The notes below the pieces were generated by a model. The model was not told the origin of the DNA, did no database searches, and worked only from the letters and a program-made list of their open reading frames with translations. Source: Flavobacteria bacterium MS024-2A (lineage in GTDB: Bacteria > Bacteroidota > Bacteroidia > Flavobacteriales > Flavobacteriaceae). Taken from it: a DNA stretch of 64,000 nucleotides. Each line of letters begins with the position of its first letter. Position 1 is the first letter of the stretch. A program made the translations under genes and the position numbers. The DNA lies in contig CAJJBB010000004.1 in NCBI GenBank assembly GCA_905182305.1, positions 2,501-66,500 of the forward strand. The letters run 5' to 3'. This document shows positions 46,197 through 55,210 of this stretch, in pieces.

Positions 46197-46252
46197 AACA
46201 TTCGTCATCCAATAATATAGATCTTAATAATATGTACTAATAAATATATTTT

Positions 46253-46282
46253 TTGATATCTAATAAAAATTAGTGATATTTG
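46253..46282 (+). promoter_or_regulatory. promoter of the arginine operon
   Basis: TTG (46253-46255), exactly 19 nt, then GATATTTG (46275-46282), one mismatch from TAnnTTTG. Transcription would begin near 46288, leaving a 160-nt leader before the first structural gene. Confidence 0.6.
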
Positions 46283-46289
46283 CAATGTT

Positions 46290-46367
46290 ATGTTCAAAAC
46301 AACACTTTTATATAATTTTCCAGGCACTTCATCACTTCCGTTGCGCCCGATGTTTCGTCGCCCCTAG
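46290..46367 (+). CDS. putative Arg-codon leader peptide, 25 aa
   Basis: The second ATG after the predicted start opens a 25-codon frame whose peptide ends LPLRPMFRRP before a TAG at 46365. Three Arg codons (46344-46346, 46356-46358, 46359-46361) fall in the last seven sense codons and overlap the hairpin region that follows. A start at 46285 in another frame gives a 44-codon ORF with HFRCARCFVAPRG, also containing Arg; which is translated cannot be settled from sequence. The position before arginine-synthesis genes suggests a regulatory peptide (inference). Confidence 0.45.
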   Translation: MFKTTLLYNFPGTSSLPLRPMFRRP

Positions 46368-46417
46368 GGGTGTAGCTTATTTATGGAGTACGGTGTGCCC
46401 TTCTCTCTTCTCGTACT
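46321..46417 (+). promoter_or_regulatory. GC-rich structured leader of the arginine operon (candidate attenuator)
   Basis: A stretch of clearly higher GC than the surrounding DNA. Three structures can be drawn: a local hairpin CGCCCC-TA-GGGGTG (46360-46372); an alternative stem GTTGCGCCC (46340-46348) with GGGTGTAGC (46368-46376), using three G-T pairs and excluding the first; and AGTACG / CGTACT (46387-46392 with 46412-46417) around a 19-nt pyrimidine-rich loop. No T-tract terminator is visible, so control could be at translation or by Rho. About 25 AT-rich bases separate it from the first gene. Confidence 0.5.
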
Positions 46418-46447
46418 AAACAAATTTCTTATCTATTAATACACAAA

Positions 46448-47053
46448 ATGAAAATATTACGCGCTACTGCGGAACACATTTCTTATGCTAAAAATATCAG
46501 TGCATGCATTGATGATTCTGCAAAAAACAGAGGCACTGGAATCGCCAGACGTACTCCTGAATATATTGCTACAAAAATTAAAAATGGCAATGCAGTTATA
46601 GCGATTGAAAATAATTCATTTGCTGGTTTTTGTTACATAGAGGTTTGGGGGCATGGAAAATATGTAGCTCATTCCGGATTAATTGTTACTCCTAAGCAAC
46701 GCGGAAAAGGTCTTGCTAAAAAAATTAAAAGAGAAGTATTTAAACTTTCTTTAAAAAAATATCCGAAGGCTAAAATTTTTGGAATCACCACAGGTATGCC
46801 TGTTATGAAAATAAATTATGAACTAGGTTATAAACCAGTTCACTTTTCAGAACTTACAGATGATCCTGAATTTTGGAAAGGCTGTCAAACTTGTAAAAAT
46901 TATGATATTTTAACCAGGACAGAACGCCAAATGTGTTTATGTACTGGGATGTTATTTGACCCAAAAAAAGAAATAAAAAATATACTTATTAATAAAAAAA
47001 TAGTGCAAAGAATTAAAACAGCAATTTCACTAAAAAATAAAAATGATAAATAA
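46448..47053 (+). CDS. GNAT family N-acetyltransferase, first gene of the arginine operon
   Basis: 201 residues. GNAT core about 1-135: the V-shaped acyl-CoA site is VTPKQRGKGLAKKIKRE (80-96), followed by AKIFGITTGMPVM and NYELGYKPV. A C-terminal tail carries Cys146, Cys149, Cys163 and Cys165 (CQTC ... CLC), a possible metal site. The operon has every other step of arginine synthesis but no ArgA or ArgJ, so this protein is the natural candidate for N-acylglutamate (acetyl or succinyl) synthase. That role is inferred from position. Overlaps argG by 11 bp. Confidence 0.85.
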   Translation: MKILRATAEHISYAKNISACIDDSAKNRGTGIARRTPEYIATKIKNGNAVIAIENNSFAGFCYIEVWGHGKYVAHSGLIVTPKQRGKGLAKKIKREVFKLSLKKYPKAKIFGITTGMPVMKINYELGYKPVHFSELTDDPEFWKGCQTCKNYDILTRTERQMCLCTGMLFDPKKEIKNILINKKIVQRIKTAISLKNKNDK

Positions 47054-48236
47054 ATCTAAATTGGTTTTGGCCTATAGTGGAGGATTAGATACTTCATATT
47101 CACTTCAAAAACTTTCTCAAGATGATTTTGAAGTTCATGCTGTCAGTATTAATACCGGTGGTTTTTCTCAAAATGAAATTGAAATCATTCAAGAAAAGGC
47201 ATATCAAATGGGTGCACATTTGTACAAAAATATTGATGCTTTAGATTCTTTTTATAACAAAATTGTAAAATTCCTTATTTACGGTAATGTTTTACGAAAC
47301 AATAATTACCCCCTTTCCGTTAGTGCAGAACGAATTATTCAGGCTATAGAAGTTATTAATTATGCCAAAAAAATTGGAGCAAAGTATATTGCTCATGGCA
47401 GCACGGGCGCAGGAAATGATCAGGTACGTTTTGATATGATTTTTCAAGTATTAGCCCCTGAAATAAAAATCATCACCTTAATTAGAGATCTCCAACTATC
47501 TAGAGAAGATGAAATAAAATATTTAAAAACTCAAGGTATTAATCTCCCTTGGGAAAAAGCAAAATATTCTATAAATCAAGGTTTATGGGGAACAAGTGTC
47601 GGTGGAGCAGAAACTCTTACCTCCAATTCTCCATTACCAGAGGCAGCTTACCCAAGTCAGCTTAAAACAGAAACTCCCGAATTTTTAACTCTTAGTTTTA
47701 AAAAAGGAGAACTCATCAAGTTGAACAAAAAATTAGGGTCTCCAGTGGAATTAATTCAAAAACTTCAAGAGCATGCAAAAAAATTTGCTATTGGAAGAGA
47801 TATTCATGTTGGCGATACCATAATAGGAATAAAAGGAAGAGTAGGTTTTGAAGCCGCTGCTTCTATAATTATTATTAAGGCACACCACCTTTTAGAAAAA
47901 CACACTTTAACAAAATGGCAACTATATCAAAAAGAACAATTAGCCAATTTCTATGGAATGCAACTACATGAAGGACATTATTTAGATCCTGTAATGCGAG
48001 ACATGGAGGCATTTATGGAAAGTAGTCAAAAACAAGTAAGTGGAACCGTTTCTATTAAGCTTCACCCTTATCGCTTTGAGCTTCTTGGTATTTCGTCTCC
48101 AAATGATCTGATGCAAGCAGAGTTTGGAAGCTATGGAGAAATGAACAAAGGATGGACTTCAGATGAAGTAAAAGGATTTATTAAGCTCACTGCTAATGCC
48201 ACAAAAATATATCAAAATATCAATAAAAAATTATGA
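47043..48236 (+). CDS. argG: argininosuccinate synthase
   Basis: 397 residues. The ATP pyrophosphatase P-loop LAYSGGLDTSYSL (9-21) is followed by the citrulline/aspartate-binding HGSTGAGNDQVRFD stretch. It joins citrulline and aspartate with ATP to give argininosuccinate. In this pathway free citrulline arises only after the ArgE' deacylation step. The start is nested in the 3' end of the GNAT gene and the stop overlaps argC by 4 bp (ATGA), so translation is coupled. Confidence 0.95.
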   Translation: MINKSKLVLAYSGGLDTSYSLQKLSQDDFEVHAVSINTGGFSQNEIEIIQEKAYQMGAHLYKNIDALDSFYNKIVKFLIYGNVLRNNNYPLSVSAERIIQAIEVINYAKKIGAKYIAHGSTGAGNDQVRFDMIFQVLAPEIKIITLIRDLQLSREDEIKYLKTQGINLPWEKAKYSINQGLWGTSVGGAETLTSNSPLPEAAYPSQLKTETPEFLTLSFKKGELIKLNKKLGSPVELIQKLQEHAKKFAIGRDIHVGDTIIGIKGRVGFEAAASIIIIKAHHLLEKHTLTKWQLYQKEQLANFYGMQLHEGHYLDPVMRDMEAFMESSQKQVSGTVSIKLHPYRFELLGISSPNDLMQAEFGSYGEMNKGWTSDEVKGFIKLTANATKIYQNINKKL

Positions 48237-49204
48237 AAAATGTAGGAATTATTGGAGGTTCAGGCTACACGGGAGGTGAACTCATTCGTTTAGTCCTTCA
48301 ACATCCAGCATTAAAATTGTCTTTTGTTTACAGCACTACAAGGTCTGGGAAATCACTAAATTCAGTTCACCAAGATCTTTTAGGAACTGTATCACTAGAC
48401 TTTACAGATTCTATTGAATCAGATATTGATATTTTATATTTATGCTTAGGGCATGGTAATTCAAAAACTTTTTTAAAAGAACATTCTTTTTCTGATAAAA
48501 CCATTATTATCGATTTAGGAAATGATTTTAGACTAGAAGCTGACCAAGCTTTTGAAGGGAGGAATTTTGTGTATGGTCTTCCTGAACTTCAAAAAGAAAA
48601 GATTGAAAATTCAAAGTCTATTGCTAATCCAGGATGTTTTGCTACTGCAATTCAACTAGCACTCTTACCCTTGGCAAACCAAAATTTAATAAATGGTCCT
48701 GTTCACATTAATGCTACCACTGGTAGTACAGGAGCTGGAGTTGGACTAAGTACTACCAATCACTTTAGCTGGAGAAATAATAATTTATCCTGGTACAAGC
48801 CCTTTACACATCAACATTTAGGAGAAATTCATCAGAGTTTAGAGCAGTTAGATTCTCCAAGTGAAATTTATTTAATTCCACAGCGCGGAGATTTTACTCG
48901 CGGTATTTTTACAACTCTTTATACTTCTTTTGAGGGTAGTTTAGAAGAGGCTAAAAAATACTATCACACATTTTATGCGTTTCACCCTTTTACGCAAATT
49001 TCAGATCAAGAGGTTAGTTTAAAATCAGTTATTAATACAAATTATTGTTTTATTCATTTGCATAAATACCAAAACAAACTTTTAATAACCAGTGTAATTG
49101 ATAACCTGGTAAAAGGTGCTTCCGGACAAGCCATTCAAAATACAAACCTCATTATGGGCTGGGAGGAAAATCTAGGCCTTAATCTAAAAGCCTCCATTTT
49201 TTAA
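48233..49204 (+). CDS. argC: N-acetyl-gamma-glutamyl-phosphate reductase
   Basis: 323 residues. The NADP-binding GIIGGSGYTGGELIRLVLQHP is at the N-terminus (residues 4-24, read in pieces). YGLPEL precedes the catalytic Cys in ANPGCFATAIQLALLPL (about 132-148). Substrate-contacting His is in HQHLGEIHQ. It reduces the acylglutamyl phosphate made by ArgB to the semialdehyde. ATGA overlap with argG. Confidence 0.95.
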   Translation: MKNVGIIGGSGYTGGELIRLVLQHPALKLSFVYSTTRSGKSLNSVHQDLLGTVSLDFTDSIESDIDILYLCLGHGNSKTFLKEHSFSDKTIIIDLGNDFRLEADQAFEGRNFVYGLPELQKEKIENSKSIANPGCFATAIQLALLPLANQNLINGPVHINATTGSTGAGVGLSTTNHFSWRNNNLSWYKPFTHQHLGEIHQSLEQLDSPSEIYLIPQRGDFTRGIFTTLYTSFEGSLEEAKKYYHTFYAFHPFTQISDQEVSLKSVINTNYCFIHLHKYQNKLLITSVIDNLVKGASGQAIQNTNLIMGWEENLGLNLKASIF

Positions 49205-49214
49205 AAAATTTAAT

Positions 49215-50009
49215 ATGAAAATAGCAATTATAGGTACTGGAAATTTGGGTTTAAGTATAGCCAAAGGGTTGGTTATTAATAACACCTACACTACTTTATA
49301 TCTAACCAAAAGAAATCTAGATACACTTTCCAATTGGAAAGAATATAAAAATGTAACTCTGACTAAAGATAATTCAAAAGCTTTATCAAACGCAGACATC
49401 ATAATCTTTGCCGTTCAACCCAGTCAGTTTGATGCTATTTTAAATGAAATAAAACCAATCCTTAACGATAAACACGTATTAATTTCCACTATTACAGGTT
49501 ATACAATTGGTCGAATGGAGACCCAGATAGGCAATCAATATCCAATCATAAGAGCAATGCCTAATACTGCAATTTCTGTAGGTAAATCAATGACCTGTCT
49601 CTGTAATAATGTTGTAGGTAAAAAAAGCTTACCCATCGCCGAGGCTATTTTTAACGGCTTAGGCACCACGTTGACTATAGACGAAAATCATATGCAGGCA
49701 GCAACAGTTTTGTGCGCCAGTGGTATTGCGTTTTGGATGCGATTGATTAGAGCAACAACCCAAGGTGGAGTTCAGTTAGGGTTTGATGCAGATGTTGCTT
49801 TACAGATGTCAATGCAAACTGCCATGGGAGCTGCTAGTCTATTAATTGAAACGGGGACACACCCTGAGGAAGAAATTGACCGTGTAACCACTCCCAGAGG
49901 TTGTACCATTACCGGCCTAAATGAAATGGAGCATCAAGGATTAAGCTCATCGCTTATTAAAGGTTTAAATGCCTCATTTGATAAAATTAATGAAATAGCC
50001 AAGCAATAA
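49215..50009 (+). CDS. proC: pyrroline-5-carboxylate reductase
   Basis: 264 residues. The Rossmann N-terminus is IAIIGTGNLGLSIAKGL (3-19). VQPSQFDAIL and RAMPNTAISVGKSMT are the conserved central motifs, and the C-terminal signature is ETGTHPEEEIDRVTTPRGCTITGLNEMEH. It makes proline from pyrroline-5-carboxylate. Its placement among arginine genes ties proline and ornithine/glutamate metabolism together and is a regular feature of flavobacterial arginine clusters. Confidence 0.93.
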   Translation: MKIAIIGTGNLGLSIAKGLVINNTYTTLYLTKRNLDTLSNWKEYKNVTLTKDNSKALSNADIIIFAVQPSQFDAILNEIKPILNDKHVLISTITGYTIGRMETQIGNQYPIIRAMPNTAISVGKSMTCLCNNVVGKKSLPIAEAIFNGLGTTLTIDENHMQAATVLCASGIAFWMRLIRATTQGGVQLGFDADVALQMSMQTAMGAASLLIETGTHPEEEIDRVTTPRGCTITGLNEMEHQGLSSSLIKGLNASFDKINEIAKQ

Positions 50010-50010
50010 C

Positions 50011-51156
50011 ATGAAACTATTCGAGGTTTATCCGTTATATGATGTTACCCCTGTTCGTGCAAAAGATGTATTTGTATATGATGAACATAATAAAGAATAC
50101 CTTGATCTCTATGGAGGCCATGCAGTTATTTCAATTGGACATTCCCATCCTCATTATGTAGAGAGAATAAAACAGCAATTAATGCAAATTGGATTTTATT
50201 CAAATGCCATTCAAAACCCCTTGCAACAAAAGTTGGCAGATGCTATCGGAGAACAATCGTGTCTACATGACTACAAACTGTTTTTATGCAGTACTGGAGC
50301 TGAGGCTATTGAAAATGCTTTAAAACTTGCTTCATTTCACACCAATCGAAAAAAAGTAATTGCTTTCCATAATGCCTTTCATGGAAGAACCTCAGCAGCA
50401 GTAGCCGTTTCAGATAACCCTGGAATAAATGCACCTCTTAATAAACAACAAGAAGTTACCTTTTTACCATTTAATGACGAAAAAGCACTTCATCAAGCAT
50501 TAGCTTCAAAAGAGTATTGTGCTGTTATTTTTGAGGGAATTCAAGGAGTTGGGGGACTGGACCAACCTTCTGAAGAATTCGTTTTTACCATGGAACGTTT
50601 ATGTAAAAAATTTGGTAGTTGTCTAATTGCAGACGAAGTCCAAGCTGGTTTTGGAAGAACGGGTACTTTTTTCTCCTACCAGAAGTACAATATTAGTCCG
50701 CACATTATTACAATGGCTAAAGGAATGGGAAATGGTTTTCCAATTGGAGGTATCCTGGTAGGTCCAAATATTAAGGCCAAATATGGAATGTTAGGAACTA
50801 CCTTTGGAGGAAACCATCTTGCATGTAGTGCATCTTTAGCAGTTTTAGAAGTTTTAGAAGAAGAAAGATTGCAAGAAAAAGCAGTTGTTTTAGAAAATTA
50901 TTTCAGAACAAAAGCTAAAGGGCTACCGCATCTTTTAAAAATAAAAGGAAGAGGTTTAATGCTTGGTTTAGAATTTGATTTTGAAGTAGCAGCGCTCAGA
51001 AAAGAACTTATTTATAACCACAAAATTTTCACAGGGGGAAGTAGTAATAAAAAACTTATTAGAATTTTACCACCTTTGACCATAAAAGAGAAACATTTTG
51101 ATACCTTTTTTGATGCTTTAATAATTGCTTTAAAAAATAAAGACATCAACTATTAA
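50011..51156 (+). CDS. argD: N-acylornithine aminotransferase
   Basis: 381 residues, fold-type I class III PLP aminotransferase. LDLYGGHAVISIGHSHP at the N-terminus, CSTGAEAIENALKLA (phosphate site), FHGRTSAAVAVS, ADEVQAGFGRTG, and the Schiff-base Lys in TMAKGMGNGFPIGG. TFGGNHLACSASLAVL completes the site. It transaminates acylglutamate semialdehyde to acylornithine. Whether it takes acetyl or succinyl substrates cannot be told. 1 bp after proC. Confidence 0.93.
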   Translation: MKLFEVYPLYDVTPVRAKDVFVYDEHNKEYLDLYGGHAVISIGHSHPHYVERIKQQLMQIGFYSNAIQNPLQQKLADAIGEQSCLHDYKLFLCSTGAEAIENALKLASFHTNRKKVIAFHNAFHGRTSAAVAVSDNPGINAPLNKQQEVTFLPFNDEKALHQALASKEYCAVIFEGIQGVGGLDQPSEEFVFTMERLCKKFGSCLIADEVQAGFGRTGTFFSYQKYNISPHIITMAKGMGNGFPIGGILVGPNIKAKYGMLGTTFGGNHLACSASLAVLEVLEEERLQEKAVVLENYFRTKAKGLPHLLKIKGRGLMLGLEFDFEVAALRKELIYNHKIFTGGSSNKKLIRILPPLTIKEKHFDTFFDALIIALKNKDINY

Positions 51157-51165
51157 TCACTATCT

Positions 51166-52113
51166 ATGAGACAATTTTTAACATTAAAGGACCTCCCAAA
51201 TTTAGATGATGCTGTTACAGAATCAATAGAATTAAAAAAAAATCCTTTTCAATTTGAGACTCTTGGAAAAAAGAAAACACTCGGTATGTTGTTTTTTAAT
51301 CCGAGTTTACGTACCCGCTTAAGTACTCAAAAAGCAGCACAACATCTTGGAATACATAATATGATTATGAATTTTTCAAACGAAGCCTGGGCACTAGAAT
51401 TTGAAGATGGAACCCAAATGAATGGATTACGTTCTGAGCACATAAGAGAAGCTGCTGCTGTAGTTTCTCAATATTGTGATATCGTTGCTATAAGAGCTTT
51501 TGCATCTCTAAATGATAAAGAAAGTGATGAAGCAGAAAAAGTATTACAAAATTTTGCTAAGTACGCAAGTATTCCTGTAGTAAATATGGAAAGTGCAACT
51601 GCCCATCCTTTACAAGCTTTAGCAGATGCCATTACAATTAAAGAACATCAAAGTAAAAAAAGACCCAAGATTGTTTTGACTTGGGCACCTCATCCAAAAG
51701 CACTGCCCCATGCAGTCGGAAATTCATTTATTAGAATGACACAACAATTGGATGCTGATTTTGTTATTGCTCAACCCGAAGGTTATGAATTAAATCCAGC
51801 AATTACCAAAAAAACTCCCTTGATTTTCAACCAAGAAGAAGCTTTAAATGATGCAGACTTTGTTTATGCAAAAAACTGGTCTTCTTATTCAGATTATGGG
51901 AAAATATTACGAACCGATCCTCAATGGATGGTAACTAGTGAAAAGATGAAAAAAACAAATAATGCAAAATTCATGCATTGTTTACCAATTCGAAGAAATA
52001 TTGTTGTTTCTGATGATGTACTTGACAGCCCAAATTCATTGGTGATTGAACAAGCAAATAATAGAACCTTTGCTACTCAAGTAGTTTTGAAGAAAATTTT
52101 AGAAAATGGATAA
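51166..52113 (+). CDS. argF': N-acylornithine carbamoyltransferase (AOTCase/SOTCase family)
   Basis: 315 residues. The carbamoyl-phosphate motif is FNPSLRTRLSTQKAA (44-58), not the STRTR of ordinary ornithine transcarbamylase. TAHPLQALADA (HPLQ), WAPHPKALPHAVGNSF and FMHCLPIRRNIVV match the acetyl-/succinyl-ornithine enzymes. The reported specificity switch is Pro90 in the Bacteroides fragilis succinyl enzyme and Glu92 in the Xanthomonas acetyl enzyme. Here the aligned residue, in NGLRSEHIREA, is Ser90 (codon 51433-51435). The acyl group used is therefore open. Overlaps argB by 8 bp. Confidence 0.92.
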   Translation: MRQFLTLKDLPNLDDAVTESIELKKNPFQFETLGKKKTLGMLFFNPSLRTRLSTQKAAQHLGIHNMIMNFSNEAWALEFEDGTQMNGLRSEHIREAAAVVSQYCDIVAIRAFASLNDKESDEAEKVLQNFAKYASIPVVNMESATAHPLQALADAITIKEHQSKKRPKIVLTWAPHPKALPHAVGNSFIRMTQQLDADFVIAQPEGYELNPAITKKTPLIFNQEEALNDADFVYAKNWSSYSDYGKILRTDPQWMVTSEKMKKTNNAKFMHCLPIRRNIVVSDDVLDSPNSLVIEQANNRTFATQVVLKKILENG

Positions 52114-52879
52114 GCTACAGGTAGTTAAAGTAGGAGGTAATGTTATTGAAAATCGTGAATCACTCAATGAATTTTTATTTGATTTTACTAAAATTAGAGG
52201 AGCTAAAATTTTAGTTCATGGCGGCGGAAAAGAAGCTACACAAATGGCACAAAAGCTCAATATTCCAGTTCAAATTATAGAAGGAAGACGTGTAACAGAT
52301 AAGGCAAATTTAGAAATCATTAGCATGTTGTATGCAGGGAAATTAAACAAAACCATTGTTGCTCTATTACAAGCATATAATTGTGATTCCTTGGGACTTA
52401 CGGGTGCAGATGGTAATAGTGTAGTGGCAGAAAAACGATCCTCAAAACCTATTGACTTTGGCTTTGTAGGAGATGTTATTTCTGTGAATTCAGCTCTATT
52501 TAATTTATTATTAAATCAAAAGATAACTCCTGTGTGTTGTGCTATTACTCATGACAAGAATGGTCAATTACTAAACACCAATGCGGACACCATAGCTTCC
52601 GAAATTGCCTCATCAATGTCAGCATATTATGAAGTAACCTTAAGTTATTGTTTTGAAAAAAAAGGAGTACTCAAAAAACTAATGGATGAAGATTCGGTCA
52701 TTCCATCAATCAATTCAAGTCAATACGAACATTTAAAAAAAGAAGGGATTATAAATGAAGGAATGCTACCCAAAATAAAAAATTGCTTTGAAGCTTTGAA
52801 AAAAGGAGTTACTAAGGTGCGAATTGGTAATTCAAAAATGATTACAGAATCTATTGCATATACTCAAATTAAATTATAA
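52106..52879 (+). CDS. argB: N-acylglutamate kinase
   Basis: 257 residues, amino-acid kinase fold. VVKVGGNVIENRESL (6-20) and LVHGGGKEATQMAQKL (about 36-51) bind ATP and substrate. GLTGADGN and NTNADTIASEIA are the further family motifs. It phosphorylates N-acylglutamate in the second pathway step. It lacks the N-terminal extension of arginine-inhibited hexameric kinases, so feedback may act elsewhere. Its TAA overlaps the argE' ATG by one base. Confidence 0.93.
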   Translation: MDKLQVVKVGGNVIENRESLNEFLFDFTKIRGAKILVHGGGKEATQMAQKLNIPVQIIEGRRVTDKANLEIISMLYAGKLNKTIVALLQAYNCDSLGLTGADGNSVVAEKRSSKPIDFGFVGDVISVNSALFNLLLNQKITPVCCAITHDKNGQLLNTNADTIASEIASSMSAYYEVTLSYCFEKKGVLKKLMDEDSVIPSINSSQYEHLKKEGIINEGMLPKIKNCFEALKKGVTKVRIGNSKMITESIAYTQIKL

Positions 52880-53928
52880 TGATTACTCAAAAGGCCATAT
52901 CCCTACTGCAAGATTTAATTCAAATTGAGTCCTTTTCTCAATCAGAGAATAAAACTGCTGATCGAATTGAAACATGGTTTAACGAATATAATATTCCCTT
53001 CTCAAGACAACATAACAACATTTGGTCTACTAATAAAAATTTTAATTCCGAATTACCGACCCTTTTGTTGAATTCACATCATGACACCGTGAGGCCGAAC
53101 AATGGCTATACTCGAGATCCGTTTTCAGCCGATATTATTGAAGGTAAATTATATGGACTGGGGAGTAATGATGCTGGAGGAGCTTTGGTTTCTCTAATTG
53201 CATTATTCACTCATTATTATGCCCATCCTAATCCCAAATATAATTTGCTGATGGCGGCTACTGCAGAAGAAGAGATTGCAGGTGAAAAAAGTTTGAGAGG
53301 ATTATTACAAGACCTACCTAAAATAGATTTAGCTATTATCGGGGAACCAACTTTAATGGATTTAGCAATAGCAGAAAAAGGATTGGTTGTCTTTGAAGTA
53401 ATCATCAAGGGCACCCCTAGTCATGCTGCCCATCCCAACTCAGATAATCCTTTATTAAAAATTCCAGAAGTGATTCAAGCAATCAATTCAATTAAATTTG
53501 ATAAAGTTTCGCCTATTTTAGGACCCGTTAAAGTGACACTGACTCAAATTGATGGGGGAAGTCAACACAATGTAGTTCCATCCCAAGTAAAATTAGTCAT
53601 TGATGTTAGAGTAAATGAATGCTACAGCAATAGTGAAATTGAACAATATATAAAAGCTGTACTTCCATGTGAAGTTAATGCACGTTCATTAAGATTAAAA
53701 AGTTCTTCAATCGATATAAATCATTCTCTAATTCAAGCAGGAATTTCTTTGGGAAAAAAAACATATGGATCACCAACTCTATCAGATCAAGCAGCCTTAG
53801 AATGTCCCTCATTAAAATTAGGCCCCGGTGATTCAACACGTTCCCACTCTGCAGATGAATATATTTATATTAAAGAAATTGAAGATGGCATTACCTTTTA
53901 TATTGAATTATTAAAAAACTTTTTATAA
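52879..53928 (+). CDS. argE': M20 family N-acylcitrulline/acylornithine deacylase
   Basis: 349 residues, M20 metallopeptidase. Zinc motifs: LLNSHHDTVRP (His and catalytic Asp), GLGSNDAGGALVS (bridging Asp), ATAEEEIAGEKS (Glu-Glu), IIGEPT (Glu). A dimerisation domain (about 165-265) and a late His region (GDSTRSHSADEY) follow. In this pathway type the deacylase acts after carbamoylation and releases free citrulline from N-acylcitrulline; the gene order, directly following argB in an AOTCase/SOTCase operon, supports that over classic acetylornithine deacetylase. Confidence 0.88.
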   Translation: MITQKAISLLQDLIQIESFSQSENKTADRIETWFNEYNIPFSRQHNNIWSTNKNFNSELPTLLLNSHHDTVRPNNGYTRDPFSADIIEGKLYGLGSNDAGGALVSLIALFTHYYAHPNPKYNLLMAATAEEEIAGEKSLRGLLQDLPKIDLAIIGEPTLMDLAIAEKGLVVFEVIIKGTPSHAAHPNSDNPLLKIPEVIQAINSIKFDKVSPILGPVKVTLTQIDGGSQHNVVPSQVKLVIDVRVNECYSNSEIEQYIKAVLPCEVNARSLRLKSSSIDINHSLIQAGISLGKKTYGSPTLSDQAALECPSLKLGPGDSTRSHSADEYIYIKEIEDGITFYIELLKNFL

Positions 53929-53929
53929 T

Positions 53930-55210
53930 ATGAAACTCTGGCAAAAAGGGGCTGTAGCCCATGAAAAAGTTGATAAATTTACTGTAGGAAAAGATCGTGA
54001 ATACGATATAGTTTTGGCACAATACGATTGTCAAGCTTCTATAGCTCACGCTAAAATGTTAGCTAAAATTGGATTAATAAGTATCCCAGAATCTGAACAA
54101 TTATGCAAGGTATTAGAGGAGTTAAAAATAGCTGCAGAAACAGGGAATTTCACAATTGAAGATGAATTTGAGGATATGCATTCTAAAATAGAGCATGTAC
54201 TAACTAAAAAACTTGGAGATTTAGGGAAGAAAATTCATACCGCACGTTCTCGAAATGATCAAGTGCTAGTTGCTATGCACCTATACTTAAAAAAAGAATT
54301 GGGAGAAATTAAAACCCAAGTCATTGCATTGTTTGATCTTTTACTTGAATTAGCTGAAAAATATCAAAATAACTTACTCCCAGGTTATACCCATTTACAA
54401 GTTGCCATGCCATCATCTGTGGGAATGTGGTTATCTGCCTATGCCGAAAATCTGATTGATGATTTATATTTTTGGGAAGCTGCCTATAAAATTGCAGATC
54501 AAAATCCTTTAGGAAGTGCTGCAGGTTATGGAAGCGCTTTCCCAATTGACCGTGAATTAACGACAGAATTGTTAGGGTTTGATCAATTAAAAATTAATTC
54601 ACTAGCCGCACAAATGAGTCGTGGAAAATTGGAAAAAAGTACCTCTATCGCATTCTCAAGTATTGGCAATAGCTTAGCAAAATTAAGTATGGATATTTGC
54701 CTGTACATGGGACAAGATTTTAACTTCATCTCCTTTCCTAAAAATTTAACTACAGGCTCTAGTATTATGCCACACAAAAAAAACCCTGATTTGTTTGAAC
54801 TAGTAAGAGGAAAATGCAATAATCTTCAAGCTCTTCCCAACCAATTAGCTTTACTAACCTCTAACTTACCTAGTGGTTATCATAGAGATTTACAATTAGC
54901 TAAAGGACCTGTTATCGGTGCGGTACAAGAATTGAAAGCCTGCATGGACATACTATTGTTTAGTTTGCCCCAACTTGAGGTAACCCAAAATATTACCGAC
55001 CAGAAAAAATATGATTACCTCTTTAGTGTGGATACTCTTAACACAGAAGTTATTGCTGGAAAACCATTCCGAGATGCTTATCGTGAATTGGGTCACACTA
55101 TTGAAAAAGGAGATTTCCTTCCTAATAGAACCATTAATCACTCCCACTTGGGAAGTATTGGTAACCTAGGACTGGAAAAAATTCGTCAAAAAATGGAACG
55201 AATAAAATAA
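53930..55210 (+). CDS. argH: argininosuccinate lyase
   Basis: 426 residues, fumarase/aspartase superfamily. DEFEDMHSKIEHVL and HTARSRNDQVLVAMHLY (about 104-120), PGYTHLQVAMP, and the signature loop GSSIMPHKKNPD carrying the catalytic Ser. It splits argininosuccinate to arginine and fumarate, the last pathway step. Its ATG is 1 bp after the argE' stop and it closes the operon. The stop is 85 bp from the convergent lpdA stop, and no terminator is recognisable there. Confidence 0.95.
   Translation: MKLWQKGAVAHEKVDKFTVGKDREYDIVLAQYDCQASIAHAKMLAKIGLISIPESEQLCKVLEELKIAAETGNFTIEDEFEDMHSKIEHVLTKKLGDLGKKIHTARSRNDQVLVAMHLYLKKELGEIKTQVIALFDLLLELAEKYQNNLLPGYTHLQVAMPSSVGMWLSAYAENLIDDLYFWEAAYKIADQNPLGSAAGYGSAFPIDRELTTELLGFDQLKINSLAAQMSRGKLEKSTSIAFSSIGNSLAKLSMDICLYMGQDFNFISFPKNLTTGSSIMPHKKNPDLFELVRGKCNNLQALPNQLALLTSNLPSGYHRDLQLAKGPVIGAVQELKACMDILLFSLPQLEVTQNITDQKKYDYLFSVDTLNTEVIAGKPFRDAYRELGHTIEKGDFLPNRTINHSHLGSIGNLGLEKIRQKMERIK

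Follow-up and report, generated by a model that had tools for sequence, protein, structure and literature searches.

The locus analyzed here raises the question of how arginine synthesis is controlled in Flavobacteriales, and whether the leader of the arginine operon senses arginine through the codons of a leader peptide, as a first-pass annotation had proposed. It lies in a window of 64,000 nt (the whole stretch of DNA that was analyzed; G000:C4:2501-66500), taken from a genome assembly of 1.86 Mb. ArgR (PF01316) was not found in this assembly, which is 86.5% complete, and occurred in one of the 395 genomes of the order; the search was positive in nine of 14 control genomes, a Bacteroides among them. 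The operon itself (46448-55210, plus strand) has the full arginine gene content that had been assigned to it: a GNAT-family acetyltransferase (46448-47053) is followed at 47043-55210 by argG, argC, proC, argD, the gene for N-acetylornithine carbamoyltransferase, argB, argE/dapE, and argH. The closest solved relative of the GNAT protein is PA4794 (E 3.2e-5), and its position in the operon suggests that it is the N-acetylglutamate synthase. The leader stretch at 46321-46417 is indeed GC-rich for this genome, with 53.6% G+C vs. 33.5% in the window as a whole. Folding of the window's leader alone was no better than that of shuffled sequences (z +1.20 and -0.29). Since a one-sequence fold shows nothing beyond shuffles, the case made below rests on comparison.

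The promoter that had been noted before the leader is present, but it is better read as one of the Bacteroidota type, with TTTG at 46252-46255 and, 19 nt further on, the -7 box GATATTTG at 46275-46282 (both on the plus strand). TTTG corresponds to the -33 consensus of Bacteroidota promoters, and the -7 box matches five of the six fixed positions of the consensus TAnnTTTG. In F. psychrophilum, a box of this type is described at -12 to -5 (PMC9723704), from which transcription is predicted to start at 46287 on the plus strand. This is upstream of 46367, the side on which the first-pass annotation had taken a start to be compatible with an attenuator. A -7-like box (at least five of six positions) was found 3-9 nt upstream of the leader ATG in 87% of 155 loci, compared with 13% of 554 other ATGs, where up to two ATGs were tried per leader and one per control ATG. 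The commonest distances from box to ATG were 7 nt (52 loci) and 4 nt (48 loci; n = 144, the frame and ATG with the best box being chosen per locus), and a box at -12 to -5 would put these ATGs at +4 or +1. The leader frames are thus predicted to be near-leaderless, their ATG coinciding with the predicted 5′ end or lying only a few bases from it; in F. psychrophilum, leaderless messages are reported to account for 5.5% of mRNAs with mapped starts (PMC9723704). With transcription starting at 46287, the ATG at 46285 falls outside the transcript. The 44-codon frame that begins there, and that had been put forward as a competitor, gains no support: its ATG precedes the predicted start and has an equivalent in two of 22 genus loci, and the frame stays open for at least 38 codons in nine of the 22.

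The leader ORF itself runs from the ATG at 46290 to the TAG at 46365-46367 (46290-46367, plus strand). Its 25 codons encode MFKTTLLYNFPGTSSLPLRPMFRRP, ending in LRPMFRRP, and include, as had been described, three Arg codons before the stop, namely CGC at 46344-46346 (codon -7 counted from the stop) and the pair CGT (46356) and CGC (46359) at 46356-46361 (codons -3 and -2). The stop codon is located in the loop of a short stem, CGCCC/GGGTG (stem 1; 46359-46372, plus strand), the 5′ arm of which encodes the last Arg and part of the Pro. The same holds for 137 of the 171 distinct elements that we compared, and among these 137 the arginines are conserved, as the first-pass annotation had required: Arg occupies codon -2 in 100%, -3 in 95%, -4 in 53%, -7 in 42%, and -8 in 37%. 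In neither of the alternative frames does Arg exceed 9%, apart from 86% at codon -1 of the +1 frame, a position that lies over the fixed sequence of stem 1. The leader frame is open over 25 codons in 133 of the 137, vs. 29 and 42 in the other frames, and 155 of the 171 elements have an ATG frame in which at least three of the last 14 codons are Arg, vs. 9.0 expected from dinucleotide shuffles. CGY (CGC or CGT) makes up 535 of the 572 Arg codons in these last 14 positions; in 17 genes of the window, CGY accounts for 65 and AGA for 82 of 204 Arg codons. Codon -2, which is bound by stem 1, is always CGC; codon -3 is CGT in 103 cases and CGC in 26, so that the third base changes there without a change of amino acid. 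Judged by its sequence, the clustering of Arg codons in the leader frame is that of a putative ribosome-mediated attenuator.

How far the element extends was assessed at two levels. DNA matches to the leader were obtained in 26 of 100 relatives searched; 23 were among the 38 genomes of the window's genus, itself included, and the remaining three were short and in loci without GNAT. A covariance model, R1, built from 44 of the first 55 elements, matched 189 of 299 Flavobacteriaceae genomes, spread over 156 of 236 genera, in a search whose filters were able to lose weak matches. When 395 genomes of the phylum were searched, R1 gave 25 matches, 16 of them in the family at E 3e-11 or better; the nine outside the family (E 7.6e-4 to 0.0094) were taken as chance. 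Second matches in six genomes were weak (E 6.5e-4 to 4.2e-3), no arg gene was seen when the frames near them were read by eye, and an element at other operons was rejected. All 126 strong loci that were fetched, including the window's, precede arg genes. A homolog of the GNAT protein is present in 124, and the other two have, by eye, a frame of ~195 residues followed by an ArgG-like beginning. The ATG of GNAT lies 47-104 nt downstream of the hairpin-2 loop (see below) in the 116 loci measured. The first operon protein was found in 195 of 395 genomes of the order, and the motif was present by regular expression in 69 of 80 named-record loci, carriers including Zobellia barbeyronii, Maribacter algarum, Robiginitalea sediminis, and Gillisia lutea. 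The set of 171 was drawn from 236 upstream regions, 177 of which passed the regular expression before identical elements were removed; excluded prior to the counts were L023 (too short), L024-L028 (no GNAT), and L029 with six other repeat genome copies. Selection by regular expression means that the set cannot show elements that do not have the loop motif, and L232 and L241, both R1 matches, escaped it. ATG frames meeting the same threshold of three Arg among the last 14 codons were also found in 11 of 56 upstream regions of the GNAT protein that have no R1 element, vs. 2.0 expected.

Several other arrangements were observed before the operon. Genus g49 of the Flavobacteriaceae, tentatively taken to be Flavobacterium, is absent from the 25 phylum matches, and at least 19 of its genomes are among the misses listed. 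In 28 g49 loci (L056, L058, L060, L064, L065, L067-L075, L077-L089, and L094), a different near-leaderless frame, MNKISLHITSLSRTNSP..TSPEVRML-stop, with variants, occurs about 250-270 nt before GNAT; the leader also contains repeats of CGGA and the hairpin ACTTC-TCCC-GAAGT, in which L056 shows a compensatory change. In other families of the order (L108, L109, L115, and L117), Arg-rich frames ending in RRLRA, EPNR, RRRLRA, and RRRPVRV precede GNAT in other RNA contexts. Several genomes of family f5 and some of g49 (L099-L104, L095, and L097) have no Arg leader and show, by eye, AAAGATA/ATCTTT-like repeats near the promoter, possibly the operator of some regulator. In family f16 (e.g., G086 and G183), the GNAT match lies within an open frame of ~600 residues, which suggests that the first gene of the operon is fused to another gene there.

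Another feature of the element is that it is often doubled. A second Arg frame, with at least three Arg in its last 12 codons, ends 120-215 nt before hairpin 2 in 67 of the 171 elements, vs. 1.5 expected from shuffling of that stretch. These upstream frames differ in sequence (e.g., RNRRRF-stop), and 206 of 299 Arg codons in 72 frames with at least two Arg are CGC. An alignment of the 67 upstream leaders gave no consensus structure. The stretch ACGTAATTTTAATTTTT recurs before the second leader frame in tandem loci such as L120, L121, and L141.

The covariance test on Flavobacteriaceae leaders that had been recommended came out in favor of a conserved RNA structure, made up of stem 1 and of hairpin 2 (site 46385-46406, plus strand), which has a weak outer stem GGAG/CUCU, an inner GG/CC, and a pentaloop YGNGY. 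Of the cells in the 44 training sequences, 92.8% pair, and seven of 13 pairs change on both sides; none of 500 shuffles reached four of the five measures, and 37 reached the fifth. For 100 sequences outside training, from the 126 loci fetched, 97.3% pair, eight of 13 pairs show double changes, and no shuffle out of 500 was as high on any of the five measures, slid versions being lower throughout, in an alignment that was fitted to R1 and is therefore biased towards structure, and with the reservation that kinship alone can beat shuffles. The covariation score was reached by none of 500 shuffles in either set, and RNAalifold recovered both hairpins unprompted on both. Most of the change falls in hairpin 2, where double changes were seen at six of eight pairs in the training sequences and at seven of eight in the others. 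Stem 1 is nearly invariant, with a double change from C-G to A-U in two of 44 training and two of 100 other sequences; because it varies so little, its covariation rests on few sequences. No Rfam family, Flavo-1 (RF01705) and Bacteroid-trp (RF01692) included, matched the window's region (E up to 5) or six other loci (E up to 0.5).

Keeping these results in mind, we consider it very probable that the element acts in cis as a ribosome-mediated attenuator of the arg operon, with charged tRNA-Arg as the signal that it senses. The leader peptide, conserved arginines, and covarying hairpins of the arginine attenuator as first proposed are thus retained; its GGGTG switch, its third hairpin, and its 44-codon frame gained no comparative support. 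When arginine is plentiful, the ribosome would clear the Arg codons, terminate, and leave, whereupon stem 1 and hairpin 2 would fold and jointly reduce expression of the operon. With Arg-tRNA scarce, the ribosome would wait on the RR codons and cover the 5′ arm of stem 1, and with stem 1 blocked the operon would be expressed. The sign, on when arginine is short, is that expected from the function of the operon. We take stem 1 to be the gate, which would fold once the ribosome has left and so lower expression. By a simple mask calculation over the 137 loop-stop elements, a ribosome with its A site at codon -2 to -4 lowered stem 1 from 0.81 to 0.0, and in the same state hairpin 2 stayed, going from 0.55 to 0.64-0.65; a ribosome at codon -8 permitted stem 1 (0.95). 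The RR codons are thus placed such that a ribosome waiting on them would keep stem 1 from closing. With the ribosome at the stop codon, stem 1 was abolished too (0.0), and for this reason the attenuation model needs quick release.

What the folded pair of stem 1 and hairpin 2 does is the least certain part of the model. By a simple criterion, a fold below -8 kcal/mol with five T directly behind it, a hairpin with a T-run was found in three of the 171 elements. The absence of a T-tract that had been remarked on in the window is thus general, 168 of 171 being without an intrinsic terminator, and by this criterion hairpin 2 was ruled out as one. Likewise, there was no support for pairing that would mask the last 20 nt ahead of the GNAT ATG when pairing was compared with that of exchanged segments in the 171 elements (the swap test, described below). 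Since there is neither a T-tract nor any sign of pairing with the stretch before the GNAT ATG, the output step would most likely be premature termination that needs no intrinsic terminator (by Rho or pausing), followed by RNA decay as the next candidate.

The prominence of hairpin 2 leads to the alternative that survives best, namely that the structured RNA binds a protein or arginine through hairpin 2 and that the frame merely helps to expose the hairpin. In its favor, the loop hardly changes across elements whose stems differ: with GGYGNGYCC as consensus, it is filled by GGTGAGTCC in 114 of the 171 elements, by GGTGTGTCC in 26, and by others in 31, and the loop mostly begins 27-30 nt after the stop in the stem-1 loop. 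Pairing of the loop AGGUGAGUCC with the 3′ end of 16S rRNA, in the form that we take this end to have, was considered and rejected, as 57 of the 171 loops differ from GGTGAGTCC. That ribosome masks hardly change hairpin 2 also fits a binding role. Against it, one frame retains the Arg run through third-position exchange of CGT and CGC, and the run is repeated in a second frame within a different RNA context. Furthermore, the window itself is not predicted to form hairpin 2, whose inner pairs reach 0.01 in every computed state, with and without a ribosome. Throughout the window's genus, a short outer stem is combined with mismatches beside the inner GG/CC, and the last outer pair of the window is G-U; the isolated hairpin-2 segment of the window folds otherwise (-4.3 kcal/mol, with a mean of -7.1 kcal/mol over the 171 elements). 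In three of five states, the window's transcript is instead predicted to form the hairpin AGTACG/CGTACT (46385-46417). This third hairpin of the first-pass annotation is present in the window but is private to it, occurring in one of 171 elements, the window's own; as it is absent from all others, we prefer the comparison over the window's own fold. Binding through hairpin 2 is, on balance, rather unlikely as a rival to the attenuator, and it overlaps with it, in that a bound factor could be the attenuator's output.

In this regard, it is conceivable that the element represents a new mode of attenuation, in which a ribosome-gated stem with the stop in its loop is combined with a sequence-specific hairpin (GG-YGNGY-CC) in a leaderless or near-leaderless, often doubled leader that takes the place of ArgR in most of the family. 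The hairpin would recruit a factor or pause RNA polymerase, making a terminator and a competing hairpin unnecessary. We put this forward tentatively and hold it to be possible rather than probable, the more so because the window's own sequence is not predicted to fold into hairpin 2.

A more conventional alternative, and a special form of the attenuator model, is classical attenuation by mutually exclusive hairpins that share GGGTG. Both stems can be drawn in the window, as had been claimed, and the minimum-energy fold of the window's leader pairs GUUGCGCCC with GGGUGUAGC, using GGGTG, but their mutual exclusion found no comparative support. In a swap test covering 20 segment pairs in the 171 elements, native pairing was compared with that obtained when segments were exchanged between species. 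The positive controls responded, with p 0.01 for stem 1 and p 1.6e-29 for hairpin 2, whose arms are complementary within species far beyond swapped pairs. Neither the leader nor the Arg stretch paired more strongly with the 3′ arm of stem 1 natively than after swapping (p 0.09 and 0.35), in a test that is weak or blind at invariant positions, and GGGTG almost never varies. For the 3′ arm of stem 1 with the hairpin-2 loop, native and swapped pairing differed by -0.03 kcal/mol, with the native pairing stronger in 30%, and pairing of either stem with that loop was unsupported in the 171 elements. Five of the 18 segment pairs other than the two controls had p < 0.05, but the native pairing was weaker, or more often weaker, each time. 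A scan of mutual information placed its ten top pairs in hairpin-2 columns and stem 1 at rank 13, and no new helix stood out. We regard a GGGTG switch as unlikely.

The constancy of the peptide's end brings up a third alternative, arginine-dependent nascent-peptide arrest, in which a peptide ending in RRP-stop would stall the ribosome at high arginine; the fungal arginine attenuator peptide and TnaC are precedents for arrest of this kind. RRP is indeed the triplet of the stem-1 frame in 153 of the 171 elements (PRP in nine, RRT in five, and four others once each), and a Pro codon precedes the stop in 136 of the 137 loop-stop elements. However, the Pro codon doubles as part of stem 1, RRT replaces RRP in the five elements just mentioned, and 34 of the 171 frames read through stem 1 and beyond its loop (the window's genus, for instance, has RRPVGV-stop). 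Ahead of the Arg run, the peptide varies from genus to genus while the Arg/Pro end is constant, and many of the upstream tandem leaders end otherwise, e.g., in RRRF. Arrest by the peptide is, in light of these exceptions, very unlikely. Four leader peptides that were searched matched no leader family in Pfam or NCBIfam, DUF2618 (PF10940) included, and a Pfam match of one of them to GldM (E 0.084) was taken as chance. Finally, a GC-rich patch with a random frame would explain the unremarkable fold of the single genome, but chance is refuted, to practical certainty, by the family-wide matches, the enrichment of Arg over shuffles, and the covariation.

Leader-peptide attenuation is already known, as are arginine-sensing leaders for other genes (speF and rbf). 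Strong clues for such attenuation before amino-acid operons were reported in F. psychrophilum, with hisG and pheA among the 5′ elements conserved in other genera; in the main text of that paper, the leader section names no arginine operon, and the single mention of arginine concerns cyanophycin (PMC9723704). A his leader was also observed in the window's genome (L361; G000:C6, minus strand, 1208-1261 and on), upstream of hisG. Its frame, MKLMNIHHHYLEVSNES, has 17 residues with HHH and starts 5 nt downstream of a TACATTTG box; a TAATGATG stretch further on is complementary to its His codons, and hisG is preceded by a terminator-like hairpin and T-run, so that it is predicted to be a classical attenuator in the same genome. 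Among the papers listed in a search of the open-access literature, with most subscription journals, preprints, and supplements outside its scope, there was no arginine-operon leader peptide in Bacteroidota. As far as that literature shows, arginine sensing in Bacteroidota, the RNA family, the lack of a terminator, the stop within the loop, and the tandem form are new.

In an order with ArgR in one of 395 genomes, the leader may explain how arginine synthesis is controlled. A covariance model is now available for an RNA of 156 of 236 sampled genera that is missing from Rfam, and the role of the nearly fixed loop of hairpin 2 becomes directly testable. These bacteria are said not to depend on Shine-Dalgarno sequences (PMC9723704); the element would be a case of leader-peptide control in them, with frames that begin at or near the predicted 5′ end.

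Compared with attenuators of the trp/his type, the arg leader is alike in having codons for its own amino acid just before RNA hairpins. It differs in that arginine is sensed, in that a second Arg frame is present in 67 of 171 elements, and in that a hairpin with a T-run occurs in only three of 171, with no supported alternative hairpin. Bacteroid-trp RNA (RF01692) is described as another cis-regulatory RNA of Bacteroidetes (PMC2864571), but the arg leader does not match it. The GUCCY-hairpin, listed without an Rfam accession, is also described from Bacteroidetes (PMC2864571), and GUCC occurs in the hairpin-2 loop of most loci; by this description hairpin 2 is set apart, since the base after GUCC is a purine in 147 of 171 elements and not Y. 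As in trpL of S. meliloti, a Trp attenuator of another phylum whose frame is reported to start at the 5′ end of the transcript (PMC7298713), the frame of the arg leader is predicted to begin at or near that end. The orf34/speF leader of Salmonella is closer in what it senses: it is described as having two consecutive Arg codons that serve in arginine sensing and, likewise, no intrinsic terminator, with Rho and RNA decay involved there; unlike the leader studied here, which precedes arginine biosynthesis genes, it controls ornithine decarboxylase (PMC6386406). In S. aureus, rbfL is likewise reported to be a leader peptide that senses arginine through Arg codons, but it does so with AGA/AGG, blocks the rbf start site under limitation, and serves another gene in another phylum (PMC13009471), whereas the leader of the Flavobacteriaceae uses CGY.
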